A DNA stretch of 46,874 nt from Phycisphaerales bacterium. Lineage in GTDB: Bacteria; Planctomycetota; Phycisphaerae; Tepidisphaerales; Tepidisphaeraceae. The notes beneath the pieces were generated by a model. That model searched no databases. It was not told the DNA's origin and worked only from the letters and a program-made list of their open reading frames with translations. Every line of letters begins with the position of its first letter. The first letter of the stretch is position 1. Both the position numbers and the translations under genes were made by a program. Below are positions 14,494 to 23,651 of this stretch, piece by piece. Location: positions 1 through 46,874 of the forward strand of contig JADLBV010000018.1 in the NCBI GenBank assembly GCA_020847545.1, read 5' to 3'.

Positions 14494-15429
14494 ATGCCAC
14501 CGCACGAGATCGACATTTCGTGGCAGGTGCTCCGACGGATCGTGCAGGATTGGGCAGGCACGGCGGCGGAGTTGGCGGAAGTAAAACCGCTGGTGGGGGG
14601 CTGCATCAACATCACCCTCGCACTCAAGATGCACGATGGAGCCAGGGCGGTACTCAAAATCTCCCCCCACCGCGTCTCCCGCGCCTATCAAACCGAAGCC
14701 TGGCAATTAAACGTGCTGCGCGATGCCGGTCTGCCCACTCCCCGTGTCTATGAATGCCGGCTTGGATCGCTTGATGCACCCTTCAGTTATCTGCTGATGG
14801 AATTTATCGAAGGGGTTGATCTGTCGCAGGCCCGCCAGCGCTGCTCGGCCGAGCAGTTCGATCACCTGCAAATGCACCTGGCCGAGATGGTGTTGCAACT
14901 GCACGAGCGCACGGCCGGGCATTACCGCCGGATCGGTCCGGATGACACACCTCAATTCGACAATTGGTCTGCCTTTTATTTTGACATCTATGACCCGATC
15001 TGGAAGGAGATCGAAAAATCCCCACTGCTCCCCGTCAAATGCCGCAAACAGATCGCCCGCCTGCACGACAAGCTCGATCATCATCTGCCCAACACCGACC
15101 GCCCAAGGCTGGTCCACTGGGACTTGTGGTCCACCAACCTGCTGGCCGCCCCCGATGACCACGGCCGGTGGTGGATCACCGCCATTCTCGACCCCAACTG
15201 CAAATTTGCCCACGCCGAGGCCGAAATCGCCTATATGGAGCTGTTCCAAACCATCACCCCGGCCTTTCTTCGCGCCTATCAGCAAACCCACAAGCTCCCC
15301 GCCGAATATCACCGCCTCCGCAAGCACATCTACCAGCTCTATCCGCTGATCAACCACATCCACCTGTTTGGGGCAGAATATGTCAAACCCCTGCTGGGCA
15401 TCTCAGAAAAGCTCGCGACAATCGTCTAA
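14494..15429 (+). CDS. Fructosamine-kinase/APH-like small-molecule kinase
   Basis: The 311-residue protein has the protein-kinase-like fold of the aminoglycoside phosphotransferase/fructosamine kinase group. VLKISP supplies the ATP-binding lysine, LLMEFIEG is the hinge, and LVHWDLWSTNLL is the catalytic loop (HGDLWxxN in relatives, here HWDLWSTN). AILDPN provides the metal-binding Asp. The substrate cannot be told: protein-bound fructosamine, an aminosugar or another hydroxyl compound are possible. It begins 48 bp after the WYL gene and could share its transcript, but nothing links it to CRISPR function. Confidence 0.75.
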   Translation: MPPHEIDISWQVLRRIVQDWAGTAAELAEVKPLVGGCINITLALKMHDGARAVLKISPHRVSRAYQTEAWQLNVLRDAGLPTPRVYECRLGSLDAPFSYLLMEFIEGVDLSQARQRCSAEQFDHLQMHLAEMVLQLHERTAGHYRRIGPDDTPQFDNWSAFYFDIYDPIWKEIEKSPLLPVKCRKQIARLHDKLDHHLPNTDRPRLVHWDLWSTNLLAAPDDHGRWWITAILDPNCKFAHAEAEIAYMELFQTITPAFLRAYQQTHKLPAEYHRLRKHIYQLYPLINHIHLFGAEYVKPLLGISEKLATIV

Positions 15430-15434
15430 TTGAC

Positions 15435-15463
15435 TTGCTTTGGCCCCGCTGAAGTCGTAGTTT
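15435..15463 (+). promoter_or_regulatory. Promoter of the SPOR-like gene
   Basis: TTGCTT (15435-15440), 17 bp, then TAGTTT (15458-15463), 57 bp before the ATG at 15521. The pattern resembles the other boxes in this window (TTGnnn and TAGnnT). Confidence 0.4.
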
Positions 15464-15520
15464 ATCCACAGCCGTGGAGACGGCCGCCGAATAAGGCATT
15501 TCATCCAAGCGAGGTCAAGG

Positions 15521-16342
15521 ATGGCCAAAGGAAAACACGCCGCCGCGTTATTTGAAGTCATCAATCGGGGCAAAAAGCCGGATCAACAGGTCGGCATGAC
15601 CGGAGCCTTGCGCACCCCCCGCTGGTGGTTCAAACGCAACGCACAAGGACACTCCGCCCCTCCACCCGCCGCAACCGGCCAGTCCGAAACACCCTCCCTC
15701 TCACCCACTCCCACCCTTGGCGACGCCATGCGCCGGCCGGGGATCAGCCTGGACACCGACAAACAGACCATCTCCCTGAAATTGACCTATACCACCGCCG
15801 CCATCACCGCATTCGCATTGATCGTCGTACTGGGTCTGACCTATCTGGTCGGCCGAAGCCTCCGCAGCGGCCCGGCCGTCGCCAATGCCTCCCCCTCCAT
15901 CGAGGAAACCCTCCATCAACCCCCCCAGCCGCAGGTGATGGACGTCCCACAAACCACCGACACCCCCGCCACCGACAACCCCACCTCAGCCGTCACCCAA
16001 ACTCCCGCGCCAACACCCCCACCATCGGTTGTCGTACAGGATGGCAAACGGCAAAACGGCCTCAATTACGTCGTCATCCAAAGCTATCCGGATGAAAAAA
16101 CCGCCCTCGAAGTGCGCAACCTGCTGATCCAGAACAACGTCGGTGCCACCATCGAAAAAGGCCTTCGCGGCCTGAACCCCAACTGGTACATCGTCGTCGG
16201 CACCGACGGCTTCGCCCGCGTCAGCTCCCCCGAATACCAATCCTACATCCGCCGCCTGCAGGCCATCAGCTCCAAATTCGCCCAAAAAGGGAGCTTCAAA
16301 TCATTCGACCCGATGGGATACCGCTGGGATCGCGGAAGCTAA
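15521..16342 (+). CDS. SPOR-like single-pass membrane protein
   Basis: A cytoplasmic N-terminus of about 85 residues, with a conserved-looking RTPRWWFKRNAQG stretch, is followed by one membrane helix (about 88-112) and a proline/threonine-rich linker. A C-terminal domain of about 85 residues begins at NYVVIQSYPDEKTALEVRN and looks like SPOR, a peptidoglycan-binding fold. The layout fits an envelope or cell-division protein with its C-terminal domain outside the membrane. I recall similar proteins from planctomycetes but know no assigned function. GAGGTCAAGG precedes the ATG. It has its own promoter and converges on the acylphosphatase gene. Confidence 0.65.
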   Translation: MAKGKHAAALFEVINRGKKPDQQVGMTGALRTPRWWFKRNAQGHSAPPPAATGQSETPSLSPTPTLGDAMRRPGISLDTDKQTISLKLTYTTAAITAFALIVVLGLTYLVGRSLRSGPAVANASPSIEETLHQPPQPQVMDVPQTTDTPATDNPTSAVTQTPAPTPPPSVVVQDGKRQNGLNYVVIQSYPDEKTALEVRNLLIQNNVGATIEKGLRGLNPNWYIVVGTDGFARVSSPEYQSYIRRLQAISSKFAQKGSFKSFDPMGYRWDRGS

Positions 16343-16346
16343 AAAC

Positions 16347-16364
16347 GGGGTCAGGAAGGTTTTT
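16347..16364 (+). repeat. Dispersed intergenic repeat, copy 1
   Basis: The 18 bases GGGGTCAGGAAGGTTTTT recur exactly at 30658-30675, and both copies continue into similar T- and G-rich sequence. GGGGTCAG-type words commonly flank REP-associated tyrosine transposase genes. No such gene is present here, so this would be a remnant or solo copy. Confidence 0.5.
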
Positions 16365-16440
16365 CTGTGTTTTGTAAAGTTCGCACCTAATGTAAACCAT
16401 GCTGCTCGGTTGCGTGGATACGAATGGAATTGAAACGCCC

Positions 16441-16458
16441 TTGGCACCCTTGTGCCAA
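16441..16458. terminator. Hairpin between convergent genes
   Basis: TTGGCAC-CCTT-GTGCCAA forms a perfect 7-bp stem with a 4-base loop in the gap between the ends of the SPOR-like and acylphosphatase genes. There is no T-tract, so it is at best a weak or factor-dependent terminator. Confidence 0.3.
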
Positions 16459-16470
16459 TTGAATCGCCGC

Positions 16471-16767
16471 TTAATGTCGAATTGAAAACCGCTGAAATTC
16501 CCCCGTGGCGGGAAGTTGATCGACGTTCACATCGCGAATGAACCCATCCATCTTTTCATGGATCGCCGAAATGATCTGATCCATCTCCGGGTCCGGCCCC
16601 TCCATCACGATCTCCACCCGGCCATCGGGCAGATTTCGCACAAACCCCTGCACCGCATATTGCATCGCAATGTTCTGCACCGCACAACGAAACCCCACCC
16701 CCTGTACCCGCCCGCTGACCAGACAGCAGCGGCGATGTGTCTCAATTTGTGAATGAGAGACGGACAT
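16471..16767 (-). CDS. acyP: Acylphosphatase
   Basis: Acylphosphatase hydrolyses carboxyl-phosphate bonds of small acyl phosphates. From the ATG at 16767 it has 98 residues, the usual size. The signature GRVQGVGFR holds the phosphate-binding loop with the catalytic Arg, and [17 protein letters not shown] holds the catalytic Asn. An in-frame TTG at 16803 would add 12 residues of no family likeness, so the ATG is preferred. A GATAAT box lies only 9 bases before that ATG, so the message may have almost no leader. Confidence 0.9.
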
Positions 16768-16842
16768 GACCCTATTATTATCGTATTCTTGTGAATTCGC
16801 CAAGTGAAATTCCCGTTTTCATCACGCATCACGATTCACGCA

Positions 16843-17817
16843 TCACGAACCCATTACCTCCAATGTGATCTGCCGAATAAACTGATGAAACTCCTCCTCA
16901 ATCATCGGCAGTCGCTGCCCCAGATAATACTCCAGCATCGGCTTCACGCCGGCCGAATCCCATTCTCCGCCGGCGCGGTGATGGGTTCCGGTGGGATCAA
17001 AAACCGTCCCCTCGGCGACATCCGCCAGCATCCGTTGCAGCCTCCTGAAATAACGCCCATCCTGATATTCGCACATAAATCGAGCAAACGCCCAGCTTTG
17101 TGAATAAAACGCCTCAATCCGTGCCGACGGCTGATCCACCACCAACCCCGCGTGTGTGCGGATCAACTCCTCCAAAGGCCAAAGTTGCCCGCGCGCCAAC
17201 GCCTTTCGCAATCCGCGCAGTCGGGTGAGGTTGGTCTGCCGGTTCCATCGCGGTAAGTCGTTGTCCCAGCGGATGTTCTCAAACAGACACGCCAAACCTT
17301 CCTCCAGAAACGGCGGCAACCGCCCGCGAAAATTCCGCGCCACAAACTGATGCCAACCCTCGTGCGCCGCCACCGCGAAGGTCTGGCTGTCACCCAGGTC
17401 ATACGCCACATACTCATCGTGCAGCGAATATCCGCCGCGAACGATTTGCAGATATGTGGCCGATTCGCTGCCGGCGTGTTCGCGGGTAAATGCTGCCCAT
17501 TGGTCGCGATCGGCAAACCAATAACACCGCATCGGATTGTCATTTCGCGCAACTGCCGGCGCCAGCAGGAGATACTGCTGATAGGCCCCTTCCATCGTCT
17601 GGGCGATTTGATTCATTCGCGCCGGATCATCCAACGTGCTGAGCAGCAAATAATGCTCAGTTCGGTATTGATGCCCCGGCCGGCCGTCAAATGACCAAGG
17701 GGAGACTTGCACGGTTGCCGGATTGGACGGCCCGGTCCAGTTCGGTTCAGGCCGGCTTGCCGCACAACCGTCCAGCAGCAACAACAAAATAAACAACCCG
17801 CATCGGCGAATACACAT
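16843..17817 (-). CDS. Lipoprotein with HEGWH zincin-like peptidase motif
   Basis: The 324-residue protein opens with a lipoprotein signal: a charged start, a Leu-rich core, then the lipobox LLLDGC with Cys18. The middle holds VAAHEGWHQFVARNF, an HExxH zinc motif, and further on FLEEGLACLFE, whose Glu could be the third ligand of a gluzincin. Overall it looks like the DUF1570 type of putative peptidases common in planctomycetes. It is probably anchored in the envelope. The substrate is unknown and activity is inferred from the motif. It diverges from the MBL-fold gene across only 41 bp. Confidence 0.7.
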   Translation of the reverse strand: MCIRRCGLFILLLLLDGCAASRPEPNWTGPSNPATVQVSPWSFDGRPGHQYRTEHYLLLSTLDDPARMNQIAQTMEGAYQQYLLLAPAVARNDNPMRCYWFADRDQWAAFTREHAGSESATYLQIVRGGYSLHDEYVAYDLGDSQTFAVAAHEGWHQFVARNFRGRLPPFLEEGLACLFENIRWDNDLPRWNRQTNLTRLRGLRKALARGQLWPLEELIRTHAGLVVDQPSARIEAFYSQSWAFARFMCEYQDGRYFRRLQRMLADVAEGTVFDPTGTHHRAGGEWDSAGVKPMLEYYLGQRLPMIEEEFHQFIRQITLEVMGS

Positions 17818-17823
17818 GGACAG

Positions 17824-17851
17824 TTGCCTTTTGTTTCGCCGGCCCTACGCT
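17824..17851 (+). promoter_or_regulatory. Promoter giving a leaderless transcript of the MBL-fold gene
   Basis: TTGCCT (17824-17829), 16 bp, then TACGCT (17846-17851). Only 7 bases separate the -10 box from the ATG at 17859, so the predicted start of transcription coincides with the start codon. Confidence 0.4.
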
Positions 17852-17858
17852 CGGTGGC

Positions 17859-18542
17859 ATGGCATCAGCGCGAGTGGACATCATCAGCATCGGAACCCTC
17901 AGCCGCAACCGTCTGTGGAACGAAACCCATGCCTTGCGCACCCCGCACGCAACCACCATCCTGATCCGCGGCGGCAAACGACACATTCTGGTCGATCCCG
18001 GCCTGCCGGCCCAAATCCTTGGCGCCCGATTGTACGAACGGACCGGTCTGACCCCCGACCGCATCGACACGGTCTTTTTAACCAATTTCCGTCCCGCCCA
18101 CCGCGCCGGGCTGGAACTGTGCCCCAATGCCAGGGTATTGATCCACGAAATCGAACAGGAAGCGCAGCAACGTCACCTGCAAAATCTGATCGAACAGGCC
18201 AAAGTCGCAGGTGATGAGATCGCCGTCTTACGCCAGGAATTGGATATTCTGCAATCGCTCCACCCGGCCGACGACAAACTGGCCGACCATGTGGACCTCT
18301 TCCCCCTCTTCGGCTACACCCCCGGCAATTGCGGCCTGCTGGTCAGCCAACCCACCCTCACCATCCTGATCACCGGCGACGCCGTCCCCACCCAGGACCA
18401 TTTTCTGGCCGGCCAGGTCCTCCCCGATTGCTACGACCTGCACACCGCCCAGGATTCATTGCGCGAAGCCTACGAAATCGCCGACCTGATCGTCCCCGCG
18501 CACGACAACATCTTCGTCAATCCGCGCACGCAGGGGATGTAA
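17859..18542 (+). CDS. Metallo-beta-lactamase-fold protein with degenerate metal site
   Basis: The 227-residue protein follows the MBL fold: IRGGKRHILVDPGLP (first strands and Asp), TNFRPAHRAG at the place of THxHxDH, GYTPGNCGLLV at the place of PGHTPG, ITGDAV and finally VPAHDN. At the HxHxDH motif both leading His and the Asp are replaced (N, R, A), and the next His ligand is Asn. Only the last His of the motif, the GD Asp and the C-terminal His remain. A normal two-metal hydrolase site is therefore unlikely. It may bind one metal, or act without catalysis. A central helical insert spans about residues 95-130. Confidence 0.7.
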   Translation: MASARVDIISIGTLSRNRLWNETHALRTPHATTILIRGGKRHILVDPGLPAQILGARLYERTGLTPDRIDTVFLTNFRPAHRAGLELCPNARVLIHEIEQEAQQRHLQNLIEQAKVAGDEIAVLRQELDILQSLHPADDKLADHVDLFPLFGYTPGNCGLLVSQPTLTILITGDAVPTQDHFLAGQVLPDCYDLHTAQDSLREAYEIADLIVPAHDNIFVNPRTQGM

Positions 18543-18551
18543 AGCTGGTGT

Positions 18552-20021
18552 TTATCGCGAGGCCGTAGCGGTCGTGGTGTCAATCGCACGGACGATCCGT
18601 TCCTGAATCACCTTCGCGGTGGAATTGGTGCCGCGTGGGATGCCGTTGAAGAGGATGCTGAAGGCGTACCAGCGGCCGTCGTTGGTTTTGAGGTAGCCAC
18701 TGAGTGAGCTGACGCCCGCGACGTAGCCGCTCTTGGCGAAGACCCTTCCCTTCAAGTCCGTGCCGACAAAACGGTCATCCAATGTCCCATCAACACCCGC
18801 CACCGCCAGGCTGTTGAGAAAGACCGGCCAGTAATCCCCCTGAAAATTGTGGGCCAACACCCTCGTCAGGGCGTTGGCGCTGATGCGGTTCTCCTTGGAC
18901 AAGCCGCACCCATCATCCAATTTGAATTCCGAATCGCCGATGTTGAGGGATTTTAAGAACTCCCCCACTGCGGCCGTGCCATTGGCCCAAGTGCCTTCTC
19001 CACTGACGGCGAACCCCAGCCGCTTGCACAGGCACTCGGCATACAGATTCATGCTGTCCTTGTTGGTCCTTGCCAATACGGTGGAAAGTCCCGTCTCATG
19101 CACCGCCAGCAATGACCAGTCGTTGCGTTGTTCACCTTGCAGCTCCGTCAGCGTGGTGCGGATCGTCCGGTTGCGCTGCACCGTGCCGGTGACGTTAATC
19201 CCCGATTTCCGGATCGTCTCGCTCAACACCGTGGCGGCGTACATCGGCGGGTCGTGCATCGTCACCGACACCGGCACATCCGTATTGCGGTTGGCCTCAC
19301 CCCGCAGGGTGATGTCGTTGCTGTTGGGCGTTCGTGAAAACCAGATGGCATTCTGCTGCCCGCTGACGCAGATGTTGCGGATGGTGGCATAGTTTGTCGG
19401 CGGATTGGTGAAATATTGCACCACCTGCCCGGGGGCCGTCAATCTGACCTGAAAATTCAGCAGATTGGCATTCAGATTCACCCCACCCACCTCGGCCATG
19501 TAATGCTCGTTGATCTGGTCGGCCGGCCAGTTGGGATGAATGAACACCTCATCAAACACGCTGTCATCCACGATCACATTGCGAACGGATGTGATTCCCC
19601 GCCCCTTGAGCACCTCCGCCCAGTTCTTGAAAACCGTCTCCACATCCCAGCCGACTTTTCGCAACAATTCATAATCCCCCAATGTCGGATCCCCATCCCC
19701 CACCAGAATCAAATCCCCATCGTGCGACACCAGCAAGGTACGGAACTTGAAATCATGCCCCAGCTTGTGCAACGCGGCCGATGTGGTGGCCAGTTTCAGG
19801 TTGCTGGCCGGGATGAACGGAATGTCACTCTGATGGCGATAGAGAATATGAGGTTCGGCCGCGCCCGATTCGAGCTGGATGACCTCGATCCCCGCATCGA
19901 CCTTTTGCAGGTATTTGTCACCCAGAATTGAGCGGATATCCGATTCCAGGTCGGCCCGCGACCACGCGGCCACCCCCAGCAGCAGGCAAACCATTGCAAC
20001 GACGGTGCAGCGGTGTCTCAT
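18552..20021 (-). CDS. dacB: D-alanyl-D-alanine carboxypeptidase/endopeptidase, PBP4 type (S13)
   Basis: This periplasmic peptidase trims and opens peptidoglycan cross-links. The 489-residue protein has a signal peptide (cleavage near residue 23, after WSRA), the active-site tetrad SNLK (Ser73 to Lys76), a GCGLSKENRIS segment corresponding to the SxN region, and FAKSGYVAGVSSLSGYL with KSG in place of the usual KTG box. A large domain is inserted between the first two motifs, as in PBP4. It ends 9 bp from the convergent end of the MBL-fold gene. Confidence 0.9.
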   Translation of the reverse strand: MRHRCTVVAMVCLLLGVAAWSRADLESDIRSILGDKYLQKVDAGIEVIQLESGAAEPHILYRHQSDIPFIPASNLKLATTSAALHKLGHDFKFRTLLVSHDGDLILVGDGDPTLGDYELLRKVGWDVETVFKNWAEVLKGRGITSVRNVIVDDSVFDEVFIHPNWPADQINEHYMAEVGGVNLNANLLNFQVRLTAPGQVVQYFTNPPTNYATIRNICVSGQQNAIWFSRTPNSNDITLRGEANRNTDVPVSVTMHDPPMYAATVLSETIRKSGINVTGTVQRNRTIRTTLTELQGEQRNDWSLLAVHETGLSTVLARTNKDSMNLYAECLCKRLGFAVSGEGTWANGTAAVGEFLKSLNIGDSEFKLDDGCGLSKENRISANALTRVLAHNFQGDYWPVFLNSLAVAGVDGTLDDRFVGTDLKGRVFAKSGYVAGVSSLSGYLKTNDGRWYAFSILFNGIPRGTNSTAKVIQERIVRAIDTTTATASR

Positions 20022-20093
20022 CCTTGAAAAACCTCAACTTACGAACAAATTAACTCCTACCAGCAGGTTATCGGCTGATGGGCCGATGGCAAG

Positions 20094-21305
20094 TTATTCC
20101 TCCGGGTCATCTTCCCTGGGCCGGAAGATTTTCGGTACGAGCGGGAGCTGCTTGAGGTTCAATTCATCGACCAACCCCTTTTTGGCGACCATTTCGCCGG
20201 CGTGGCGGATGGCGGCAAATTTGCGCGGGGCGACGATGTCCAGACAACGGATGATCTCGATCCAGAGCGTGCCGGAACGGGCATCGCGGGCGGGCAAATC
20301 CAACATCCCTCTGGATGGAATCACCATGCCGATGTCCAGCGGTTCAAACCCTTCGCGATCCAGTTGGCGGACAACCACCGGCTCGTGGCGGAGGTTTTGA
20401 ATCTTAAACCGATACCCATCCACCCGCACGGCGATGTCCTGCTCAATTTTAACCGGCGCCGGCACGACCGGCGCGGGCGCGCCCGGCGGCGGCGCGGGGG
20501 GCAAGGGCGGCAATGGGTCTCCATATTCCACATCCGGCAATTTGATGTGCAGGTTCTCCGCGGTTGGATGCTCCACATTGAACAAGGCCACAAATTGCTG
20601 CGTGTAATCGGCCAGATAGCCGGTGTATTCGACCGTGGCGTTGTTCGGATTGATCGGGTCGGCCACATCCAGAATGACCGGCTGGCCGATGTACTGCTCC
20701 AGCAGCGGCTCGTATGCATTGGCCAGCTTGCCGATCAGGGTCTGGCCGATGGTCGTCACCGATCCACCCTGACTGGCCAAAACCGAACTGGTCGGGTTCA
20801 TTTTTTGATACTGCCCCACCATCGCCCCGATGGCGGCGTTAAACGCATCGCGCAGGGTGTTGATGAAATTCCGCATCGCCCGCCAGAGCCGACGAAACGG
20901 GCCGGGGTTAAAACTGCGCCGAATCTGTCGTTCACGGTCTTTTCGGGTTTGTTCATCCAATTCATCGTGATATCGCAGCAGGCTCAGAAGCTGGCCATCC
21001 AATTCCTGCTGGTAGATCAGTGAGCTGGTCTTTTTTCGCCCGCGCGTGTCCACATAGGGATGGTCATAGACAATCTCGATGCCGGTGGGAAAGACTTTCA
21101 GGCGTCCCCAGATGGTCTGGCCGCGGGCGCGTTCCAGCGTCACATGGTAGCGATTGAAGAATTTGAGGCATTTGTCGCGCGCCCACTTGGTGGCGACCGT
21201 GGTGATGATCGCGGTCAAAAAGATGAAAAGGAGTGTAAAATAGAATATCGCCGAGGCGCTGGGGCCGGAGGAGGCGGTTTGTGCCAAAATCAAATTGTTG
21301 TGCAT
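20094..21305 (-). CDS. Unrecognised membrane-anchored protein
   Basis: I do not recognise the family. The 403-residue protein has one N-terminal membrane helix (about residues 19-41), a conserved-looking VTLERARGQTIWGRLKVF segment, an Arg-rich helical region (about 120-155), a middle domain, a proline/alanine linker (about 258-285) and a C-terminal beta-rich domain. There are no catalytic motifs. It diverges from the SPFH gene with 103 bp between them, and that gene's neighbours suggest an envelope-stress or membrane-organisation role. That role is inference. Confidence 0.6.
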   Translation of the reverse strand: MHNNLILAQTASSGPSASAIFYFTLLFIFLTAIITTVATKWARDKCLKFFNRYHVTLERARGQTIWGRLKVFPTGIEIVYDHPYVDTRGRKKTSSLIYQQELDGQLLSLLRYHDELDEQTRKDRERQIRRSFNPGPFRRLWRAMRNFINTLRDAFNAAIGAMVGQYQKMNPTSSVLASQGGSVTTIGQTLIGKLANAYEPLLEQYIGQPVILDVADPINPNNATVEYTGYLADYTQQFVALFNVEHPTAENLHIKLPDVEYGDPLPPLPPAPPPGAPAPVVPAPVKIEQDIAVRVDGYRFKIQNLRHEPVVVRQLDREGFEPLDIGMVIPSRGMLDLPARDARSGTLWIEIIRCLDIVAPRKFAAIRHAGEMVAKKGLVDELNLKQLPLVPKIFRPREDDPEE

Positions 21306-21333
21306 GGGAGTCTTGTCTTGAGTATATCCTATC

Positions 21334-21361
21334 CTGACAATCGATTCCGTGTCTGTAGAAT
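21334..21361 (+). promoter_or_regulatory. Promoter of the SPFH gene
   Basis: CTGACA (21334-21339), 16 bp, then TAGAAT (21356-21361), each five of six to the sigma-70 consensus. They lie 48 bp before the ATG at 21409, which has an AGGAG ribosome site. Confidence 0.55.
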
Positions 21362-21408
21362 GTTATTGTACACGAAACTTTGGTTGACCGATTAACCAGG
21401 AGAACCCG

Positions 21409-22545
21409 ATGGGCATTTGGGACAAACTTCGCGGCGAACTGATTGACATCATCGAGTGGCTCGATGAGTCGCGCGACACGATGGTCTATCGTTTCCCGCG
21501 TTACGAAAACGAAATCAAGTATGGCGCCAAGCTGGTGGTCCGCGAAGGACAGGCGGCCGCCTTCGTCAACGAAGGGAAACTGGCGGATGTCTTTCAGCCG
21601 GGGACGTATACGCTGGAGACGCAGAACCTGCCGATCCTGGCCACGCTCAAAGGGTGGAAATATGGCTTCAACAGCCCCTTCAAGGCCGAGGTCTATTTCG
21701 TCTCGACGCGGGTCTTCACCGACCGCAAATGGGGGACCAAAAACCCGATCATGCTGCGCGATGCGGAATTCGGGCCGGTGCGGCTGCGGGCGTTTGGTTC
21801 CTATGCGGTGCGCGTCAGCGACCCGGCCGCGTTTTTGCGGGAGATCGTCGGCACCGACAGCCGATTCACCATCGATGAATTCGGCGAACAGCTTCGCGAC
21901 ATGGTGGTGTCGCGCTTCACGGATGTGCTGGGGGAGAGCAAAATCCCGGCGTTGGACCTGGCGAGCAATTACGATGAGCTGGCCAAATATGTCGCCCCGC
22001 GCATCGCCCCCGATTTCGCCTCGTTCGGCCTGGAACTGAACAAATTCCTGGTCGAGAACATCTCGCTGCCGGCCGAGGTGGAGGCGGCCATGGACAAGCG
22101 CACCAGCATGGGGGTCATCGGCAACATGCAGCAATACGCCCAGTATCAGTCCGCCAACGCCATCGGCGACGCCGCCAAAAACCCCGGCGGACTCGCCGGC
22201 GCGGGGGTGGGATTGGGCGCGGGGTACATGATGGCACAACAGTTCGGACAGGCGATCAACCCGGCCAATCCACCAAATCCGCCGGCCAATGCACCCGCGG
22301 CGGGTCCGCCGACCGCAGGTCCGCCGCCGATTCCTTCGGCCATCGCCTATTTCATCGTATTGGACGGTCAGCAGGCCGGCCCGTTCGACCTGGGAAAATT
22401 GCGTGAAAACGTCTCGGCCGGAAAACTAAGCCGCCAGACGCTGGTCTGGAAACAAGGGATGGCGCAATGGACCGCCGCCGGCGATCTGGCCGAACTCGCC
22501 TCCCTCTTCGCCAGCGCCCCGCCCCCGATCCCTAAAAATTCATGA
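21409..22545 (+). CDS. SPFH-domain protein (YdjI-like) with C-terminal GYF_2 domain
   Basis: The first 250 or so residues match the YdjI/virion-core type of SPFH (band 7) protein, which assembles on membranes. Typical parts are MVYRFPRYENEIKYGAKLVV, FQPGTYTLETQNLP and a C-terminal helical part around LASNYDELAKYV. A Gly-rich stretch and a proline/alanine linker follow. Residues about 310-370 form a GYF_2 domain (YFIVLDGQQAGPFDLGKLRE), a peptide-binding fold. It overlaps the next gene by 4 nt. In Bacillus the relatives YdjI and YdjG act with the PspA homologue YdjF in the envelope-stress response; no pspA is in this window. Confidence 0.82.
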   Translation: MGIWDKLRGELIDIIEWLDESRDTMVYRFPRYENEIKYGAKLVVREGQAAAFVNEGKLADVFQPGTYTLETQNLPILATLKGWKYGFNSPFKAEVYFVSTRVFTDRKWGTKNPIMLRDAEFGPVRLRAFGSYAVRVSDPAAFLREIVGTDSRFTIDEFGEQLRDMVVSRFTDVLGESKIPALDLASNYDELAKYVAPRIAPDFASFGLELNKFLVENISLPAEVEAAMDKRTSMGVIGNMQQYAQYQSANAIGDAAKNPGGLAGAGVGLGAGYMMAQQFGQAINPANPPNPPANAPAAGPPTAGPPPIPSAIAYFIVLDGQQAGPFDLGKLRENVSAGKLSRQTLVWKQGMAQWTAAGDLAELASLFASAPPPIPKNS

Positions 22546-23351
22546 CCACCCCCGCACAAACTCCCCCGCCGCTGCCCCCCAAGCAGCGCCAGTTCCCCTG
22601 CACCCATTGCGGGGCGAGTCTGGTTTTTTCGCCGGGGACCGATTCATTGTCTTGCCCCTATTGCGGCACGGCCAATGCCATTCCCACCACCGGCGATTCG
22701 GTGCAAGAGCAGGACTATGAATCGCAACTGGCCAAACTGTCGGCCGACCAGCCGACGATTGAAATCCTGGCGGTTCATTGCAATGTCTGCGGCGCTGAAT
22801 CCACCCTCAAACCCAACGTCACCGCCGCCAAATGCCCCTTTTGCGGGTCGGGCATCGTCGCAACCGGCAGATCCAAAAAGCTGATCAAGCCTCAAGGCCT
22901 GCTGCCGTTTCACATCACCCGCACCGATGCCAACGGGCGTTTTGGGAGATGGATCGGCGGGTTGTGGTTCGCGCCCAACAACCTCAAACACCAGGCGGAG
23001 TCGGCCGGGTTGGATGGGGTCTATCTCCCCTGCTGGACCTATGACTGCATCGCCGACACGCAATACACCGGCCAGCGCGGCGAATATTACTGGACAACCG
23101 AAACCTACTCGACTTACGAGAACGGCAAGCCCATCACGCGCACCCGCCAGGTGCGCAAAATCCGCTGGTGGCCCGCCAGCGGCGCTGTCACCGATCCGTT
23201 TAATGACCTGCTGGTGATGGCAAGCCATTCCCTGCCGCGCAAACAGTTGGATCGTCTCGAGCCGTGGGATTTGGAAAATCTTTGCCCCTACGGGGATGAA
23301 TATCTGAGCGGGTTTGCCTGCCAAAGCTATGAGATCAACCTGCCGGATTGA
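22542..23351 (+). CDS. YdjG-like two-zinc-ribbon protein, N-terminal part up to an in-frame TGA
   Basis: The 269-residue product has two zinc ribbons: CTHCGASLVF with CPYCGTAN, and CNVCGAEST with CPFCGSGI. A beta-rich domain with conserved aromatic residues follows. The family (YdjG-like, often mis-named as primosome protein) usually has about 370 residues with one or two C-terminal membrane helices. Here a TGA at 23349-23351 stops the frame just after YEINLPD, and the expected rest of the protein continues in the same frame to 23651. The truncated product would lack the membrane anchor. It overlaps the SPFH gene by 4 nt, so the two are translationally coupled. Confidence 0.8.
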   Translation: MTTPAQTPPPLPPKQRQFPCTHCGASLVFSPGTDSLSCPYCGTANAIPTTGDSVQEQDYESQLAKLSADQPTIEILAVHCNVCGAESTLKPNVTAAKCPFCGSGIVATGRSKKLIKPQGLLPFHITRTDANGRFGRWIGGLWFAPNNLKHQAESAGLDGVYLPCWTYDCIADTQYTGQRGEYYWTTETYSTYENGKPITRTRQVRKIRWWPASGAVTDPFNDLLVMASHSLPRKQLDRLEPWDLENLCPYGDEYLSGFACQSYEINLPD

Positions 23352-23651
23352 TTCCAGACCGCCAAACAGATGATGCAACCAACCATCGACGGCAGCATTC
23401 GCGGCGACATCGGCGGCGATGAACAACAAATCGACTCAAAGGACTCGGCGTATCACGACATCAGCTACAAGCACATCCTGCTGCCGGTCTGGATCAGCGC
23501 CTATCGGTATCGCGACAAAACCTTCCGTTTTCTGGTCAACGCCCGCACCGGCGAGGTGCAGGGGGAAAGGCCGATCAGTTGGGTGAAGGTGATGATGCTG
23601 GTGGTGTTCATTCTGGCGGCCCTTGTCCTGATCTGGATGTGGATCCGCTAA
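23352..23651 (+). pseudogene. YdjG-like protein, C-terminal part separated by in-frame TGA
   Basis: This stretch is in the same frame as the previous gene and encodes FQTAKQMMQ, then IRGDIGGDEQQIDS, HDISYKHILLPVWISAYRY and a terminal membrane helix (VMMLVVFILAALVLIWMW). These are the expected C-terminal parts of the family. Two adjacent ATG codons (23370, 23373) could restart translation, but no ribosome site precedes them. Either the gene is newly broken, the base is an assembly error, or the codon is read through. TGA is a normal stop elsewhere in this window. Confidence 0.75.

Follow-up and report, generated by a model that had tools for sequence, protein, structure and literature searches.

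We believe that the zinc-ribbon gene described here, which is encoded beside an SPFH protein and is probably dispensable, was interrupted by a recent single-base nonsense mutation, a reading to which we give a probability of about 0.7 as a matter of judgement, the figure not being computed. The gene lies in a 46,874-nucleotide stretch of DNA (the window, to which all positions refer) that is one entire contig, JADLBV010000018.1, of the Phycisphaerales bacterium assembly GCA_020847545.1, which comprises 3.75 Mb in 162 contigs and is rated 95.6% complete. The gene carries an in-frame TGA, its reading frame is conserved on either side of that codon, and its relatives are intact; it probably represents a young pseudogene or truncated allele.

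As it stands, the open reading frame starts at the ATG at 22542 and ends with the TGA (22542-23351, 269 aa), and with the TGA ignored the same frame extends over 22542-23651 and would yield a 369-residue product if decoded throughout. This longer frame matches relatives along its whole length, in agreement with a preliminary description of the window that had placed an in-frame TGA within the gene and an open, conserved frame after it; the 100 codons counted there are 99 sense codons (23352-23648) plus the terminator TAA (23649-23651). Base composition alone gives an open run of 99 codons a chance of about 0.03, and beyond the TGA the identity to the counterpart in a sister genome of the same genus is 70%, with 97 of the 99 residues aligned and no gaps, so the frame beyond the TGA reflects more than chance.

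Features at and around the in-frame TGA (positions in the window)
Feature	Coordinates	Strand	Remarks
SPFH (Band_7_1) + GYF_2 gene, intact	21409-22545	+	immediately precedes the interrupted gene; stop and start codons overlap in ATGA
Zinc-ribbon gene, part before the stop	22542-23348	+	269 codons with two CxxC...CxxC pairs; lacks a clear membrane helix
In-frame TGA	23349-23351	+	15 of 16 relatives have Gly here and one has Ala; the codon of the same-genus sister is GGA
Part after the TGA	23352-23651	+	same frame continued for 99 conserved codons to TAA; C-terminal hydrophobic helix at about residues 347-369 of the read-through frame
Possible restart ORF, 93 aa	23370-23651	+	ATG in the frame of the TGA, 18 bases downstream of it

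Both parts of the frame contribute to the family's features. The paired CxxC motifs of the zinc ribbons, all in the upstream part, show no variation when the window is aligned with 16 relatives, and the DZR and other Pfam ribbon families match that part, every one of them under its curated cut-off. The top match in a search of solved structures was a weak one to a zinc ribbon (E 0.016), and PADLOC returned a single weak match, likewise over the zinc-ribbon stretch. The same alignment, in which the window is itself one row, has 39 invariant columns, 12 of them after the stop, and the sole strongly hydrophobic 19-residue stretch begins at residue 350 (mean Kyte-Doolittle value 2.9, as against a best of 0.8 before residue 270). 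Family features and a membrane helix are therefore preserved beyond the TGA, just as had been proposed. A fold prediction run to locate the stop within the structure was a three-sequence model with a mean pLDDT of 37 and was not used.

The gene directly upstream matches Band_7_1 (PF13421), and an SPFH match recurs in 15 of 18 distinct relative loci; L010, L011 and L019 have none, the match in L007 is a 43-residue piece at the locus edge, and L020 and L003 are one place, counted once. In the host genome the SPFH gene and the zinc-ribbon gene have one match each, and a second copy of either was not found. In B. subtilis, YdjG and YdjH are described as membrane proteins on which the membrane localization of PspA and of the SPFH protein YdjI depends (PMC8581546), and YdjG as carrying a zinc ribbon (PMC9239133). 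Like YdjG of the pspA-ydjGHI operon, the product of the interrupted gene would be a membrane protein with a zinc ribbon, its gene lying next to one for an SPFH/Band 7 protein; unlike that operon, the locus has its SPFH gene ahead of the zinc-ribbon gene, and PspA (PF04012) has no match in the host genome, although it does in 9 of 14 control genomes. The earlier label "YdjG-like" can thus be kept for the zinc ribbons, the C-terminal membrane helix and the SPFH neighbour, but does not extend to PspA, and it is reasonable to regard the gene as encoding an SPFH-associated zinc-ribbon membrane protein that is YdjG-like in architecture, likened to YdjG by description and not filed as YdjG because of the missing PspA match. 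Divergent from the SPFH gene is a 403-aa ORF (20094-21305, minus strand) that shows 94% identity to the sister, more than any other member of the aligned block, yet has no Pfam match above cut-off.

Evidence that the stop is new comes from the relatives. In a protein alignment of 16 distinct relatives the residue at the site is Gly in all but the divergent member L017, which has the Ala, and a single base separates the TGA from the sister's GGA, the very codon that had been offered as an example of a one-base restoration. The read-through frame finds matches in 18 of 61 genomes when its own is counted, and a wider search found a match in 69 of 347 genomes of the class, again counting its own; such patchiness suggests a dispensable gene. 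Across those 347 genomes, 61 matches span the site (counted by hand, nine partial rows, whose query ranges stop at or before 108 or begin no earlier than 282, being excluded), and only the window's own row has an internal stop. As far as the genomes examined go, then, the stop appears private to this one. More distant relatives, at 22-24% identity, occur in eight records of a phage collection (H13-H20: five faecal "Bacteriophage sp.", two Listeria and one Enterococcus), several of which are short and unannotated and may be bacterial DNA. Separately, a relative on the Vibrio coralliilyticus plasmid pSNUTY1 (CP020455.1; record H5, locus L103, 1501-2471) matches in two pieces, unlike those of V. 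coralliilyticus OCN008 and a Vibrio sp. plasmid, which match in one; the pSNUTY1 match extends over two annotated hypothetical proteins, one on each strand, and is perhaps another interrupted copy.

The date of the stop can be approached through divergence from the sister. The interrupted gene is the least conserved of the block aligned to the sister, with 78% identity before the stop and the lower value already given after it, while its seven neighbours stand at 84-94%. Its dN/dS by the Nei-Gojobori method is 0.23 before the stop and 0.45 after it, a difference reached in 31 of 1000 permutations. Taken by itself, the higher post-stop value could mean a decay older than "very recent", the term used in the preliminary description. 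However, the 98-codon windows closest upstream of the TGA already have dN/dS of 0.32-0.41, so the rise starts before the stop, and counts by lineage place no extra change in the window: of the 30 post-stop differences from the sister, 16 have the window's residue as the commoner one among the 15 other relatives and 9 have the sister's, compared with 23 each at 58 pre-stop differences, and mean C-terminal identity to those 15 relatives reaches 53% in the window against 51.5% in the sister. If the event is very recent, little sign of relaxed selection is to be expected after the stop. Judged from these comparisons, the window's C-terminal part is undecayed relative to the sister's, and the alignment to relatives, conserved on both sides of the stop, reveals no second lesion in the gene. 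Since there is no such decay, the stop is either very recent, or artefactual, or tolerated through decoding of the codon. The first of these, as originally suggested, agrees best with the evidence, and the other two have to be weighed against it.

The artefact would be a consensus error, or a base from a minority strain in a metagenome assembly, with the organism's own gene intact; we consider this unlikely, though it carries appreciable weight. In its favour are the fragmentation of the genome into contigs, one of which is the whole window, and the otherwise undamaged state of the gene. The other genes, however, look clean. The seven neighbour genes that were aligned to the sister, spanning 14494-22545, are all intact, and when 55 sister genes were compared in coding frame with the host genome (46 on contig C9 and 9 on the window), five showed an in-frame stop, four of which we judge to be products of over-extended starts or a non-coding frame. 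Three of those four arise from sister ORFs that begin too far upstream, the stops falling at residues 14, 15 and 21; the fourth, at residue 296 of 635, belongs to an ORF that finds a match over its first part solely in a different frame, one containing five stops. That leaves the interrupted gene as one of 55, its own sister ORF being over-extended as well, with a further stop at residue 23, before the ATG at 22542. The 55 are non-overlapping sister ORFs, taken from 203 and 33 with a match, respectively, in which differences fall mostly at third codon positions, a filter that the interrupted gene barely passed (share 0.5) and that could hide old pseudogenes, and the comparison scores in-frame stops and not frameshifts. 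In reverse, 50 host genes of contig C9 compared with the sister gave one stop, at residue 8. One in 55 speaks against frequent errors and is compatible with a lone base error.

The remaining possibility, that the codon is read, would have UGA decoded by leaky near-cognate pairing or as selenocysteine, so that the full 369-residue protein is made. We hold this to be very improbable, even though the open downstream frame, with no decay in the window's lineage, counts in its favour. TGA is a common terminator in the host, closing 144 of the 277 ORFs that reach 120 aa or more in a sample of 345,375 bases of its genome (a mechanical list that may include non-genes), and RF2 (prfB) is present above its cut-off. 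The Rfam tRNA family finds 44 tRNAs in the genome and none has a UCA anticodon, 43 having been assigned by ARAGORN and the last, at a contig end and uncalled by ARAGORN, being read by eye as CAU. Reassignment of UGA to Gly or Trp is rejected on these grounds. A four-pair anticodon stem in tRNA-Trp, an idea taken from PMC13092985, is likewise rejected, the sole tRNA-Trp found having a five-pair stem with a U-G closing pair.

Selenoprotein genes have an in-frame TGA with a conserved frame beyond it, and the interrupted gene resembles them to that extent. It differs in that its relatives have Gly (in one case Ala) at the site and neither Cys, the residue looked for in relatives of a selenoprotein that lack Sec, nor Trp, and in that neither a UCA tRNA nor a SelB above its cut-off was found: seven matches to SelB in the 95.6% complete genome all fall under the cut-off and are presumably other translation GTPases. 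One match does pass the tRNA-Sec threshold, at 48.1 against 47 bits, though ARAGORN calls it tRNA-Ser(tga), with anticodon UGA. The 40, 50 and 60 bases from the TGA onward fold no better than shuffles preserving base composition only (z 0.65, -0.03 and 0.20), and the stop is missing from the sister and from 59 other matches that span the site. On the evidence of the site, SelB and the tRNAs, selenocysteine is rejected; the checks proposed with the original suggestion, for a SECIS element, selC and selB, yielded no unusual hairpin, a tRNA-Ser and only sub-cut-off matches, and the suggestion of readthrough in general finds no support here. Among the literature titles listed on UGA readthrough in bacteria and planctomycetes, none concerned this gene or planctomycetes.

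It is equally hard to credit that the gene now works in two pieces, with translation stopping at the TGA and restarting at the nearby in-frame ATG at 23370 to give a soluble piece with the zinc ribbons and a small one in the membrane, because no Shine-Dalgarno-like sequence was seen by eye before that ATG, none of the 60 other site-spanning matches has an internal stop, and the site, with Gly so nearly constant, is not a variable linker. Taken jointly, readthrough and a functional split are possible but unsupported, and we regard them as quite improbable. Much the same scepticism as applies to either part applies to the notion of the UGA as a functional switch that yields, by leaky readthrough or restart, both soluble and membrane-anchored forms (or two pieces) of a zinc-ribbon partner for the SPFH protein.

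We therefore return to a nonsense mutation, in which one base change put TGA where the sister has GGA. RF2 would most likely end translation at this codon, giving a 269-residue protein that would lack the C-terminal region and the only clear membrane helix. If the stop is real, the lineage would keep an intact SPFH protein and probably lose the membrane partner encoded next to it. Annotations should flag the gene as interrupted, and the significance of the finding beyond that is small. A disabling stop that the relatives lack is one mark of a young pseudogene, and it is what is found here. In its single in-frame stop, its intact relatives and its freedom from other lesions, the gene is like ordinary nonsense-mutated genes of bacteria, the young pseudogenes, with nothing unusual about it; the case is an ordinary one.
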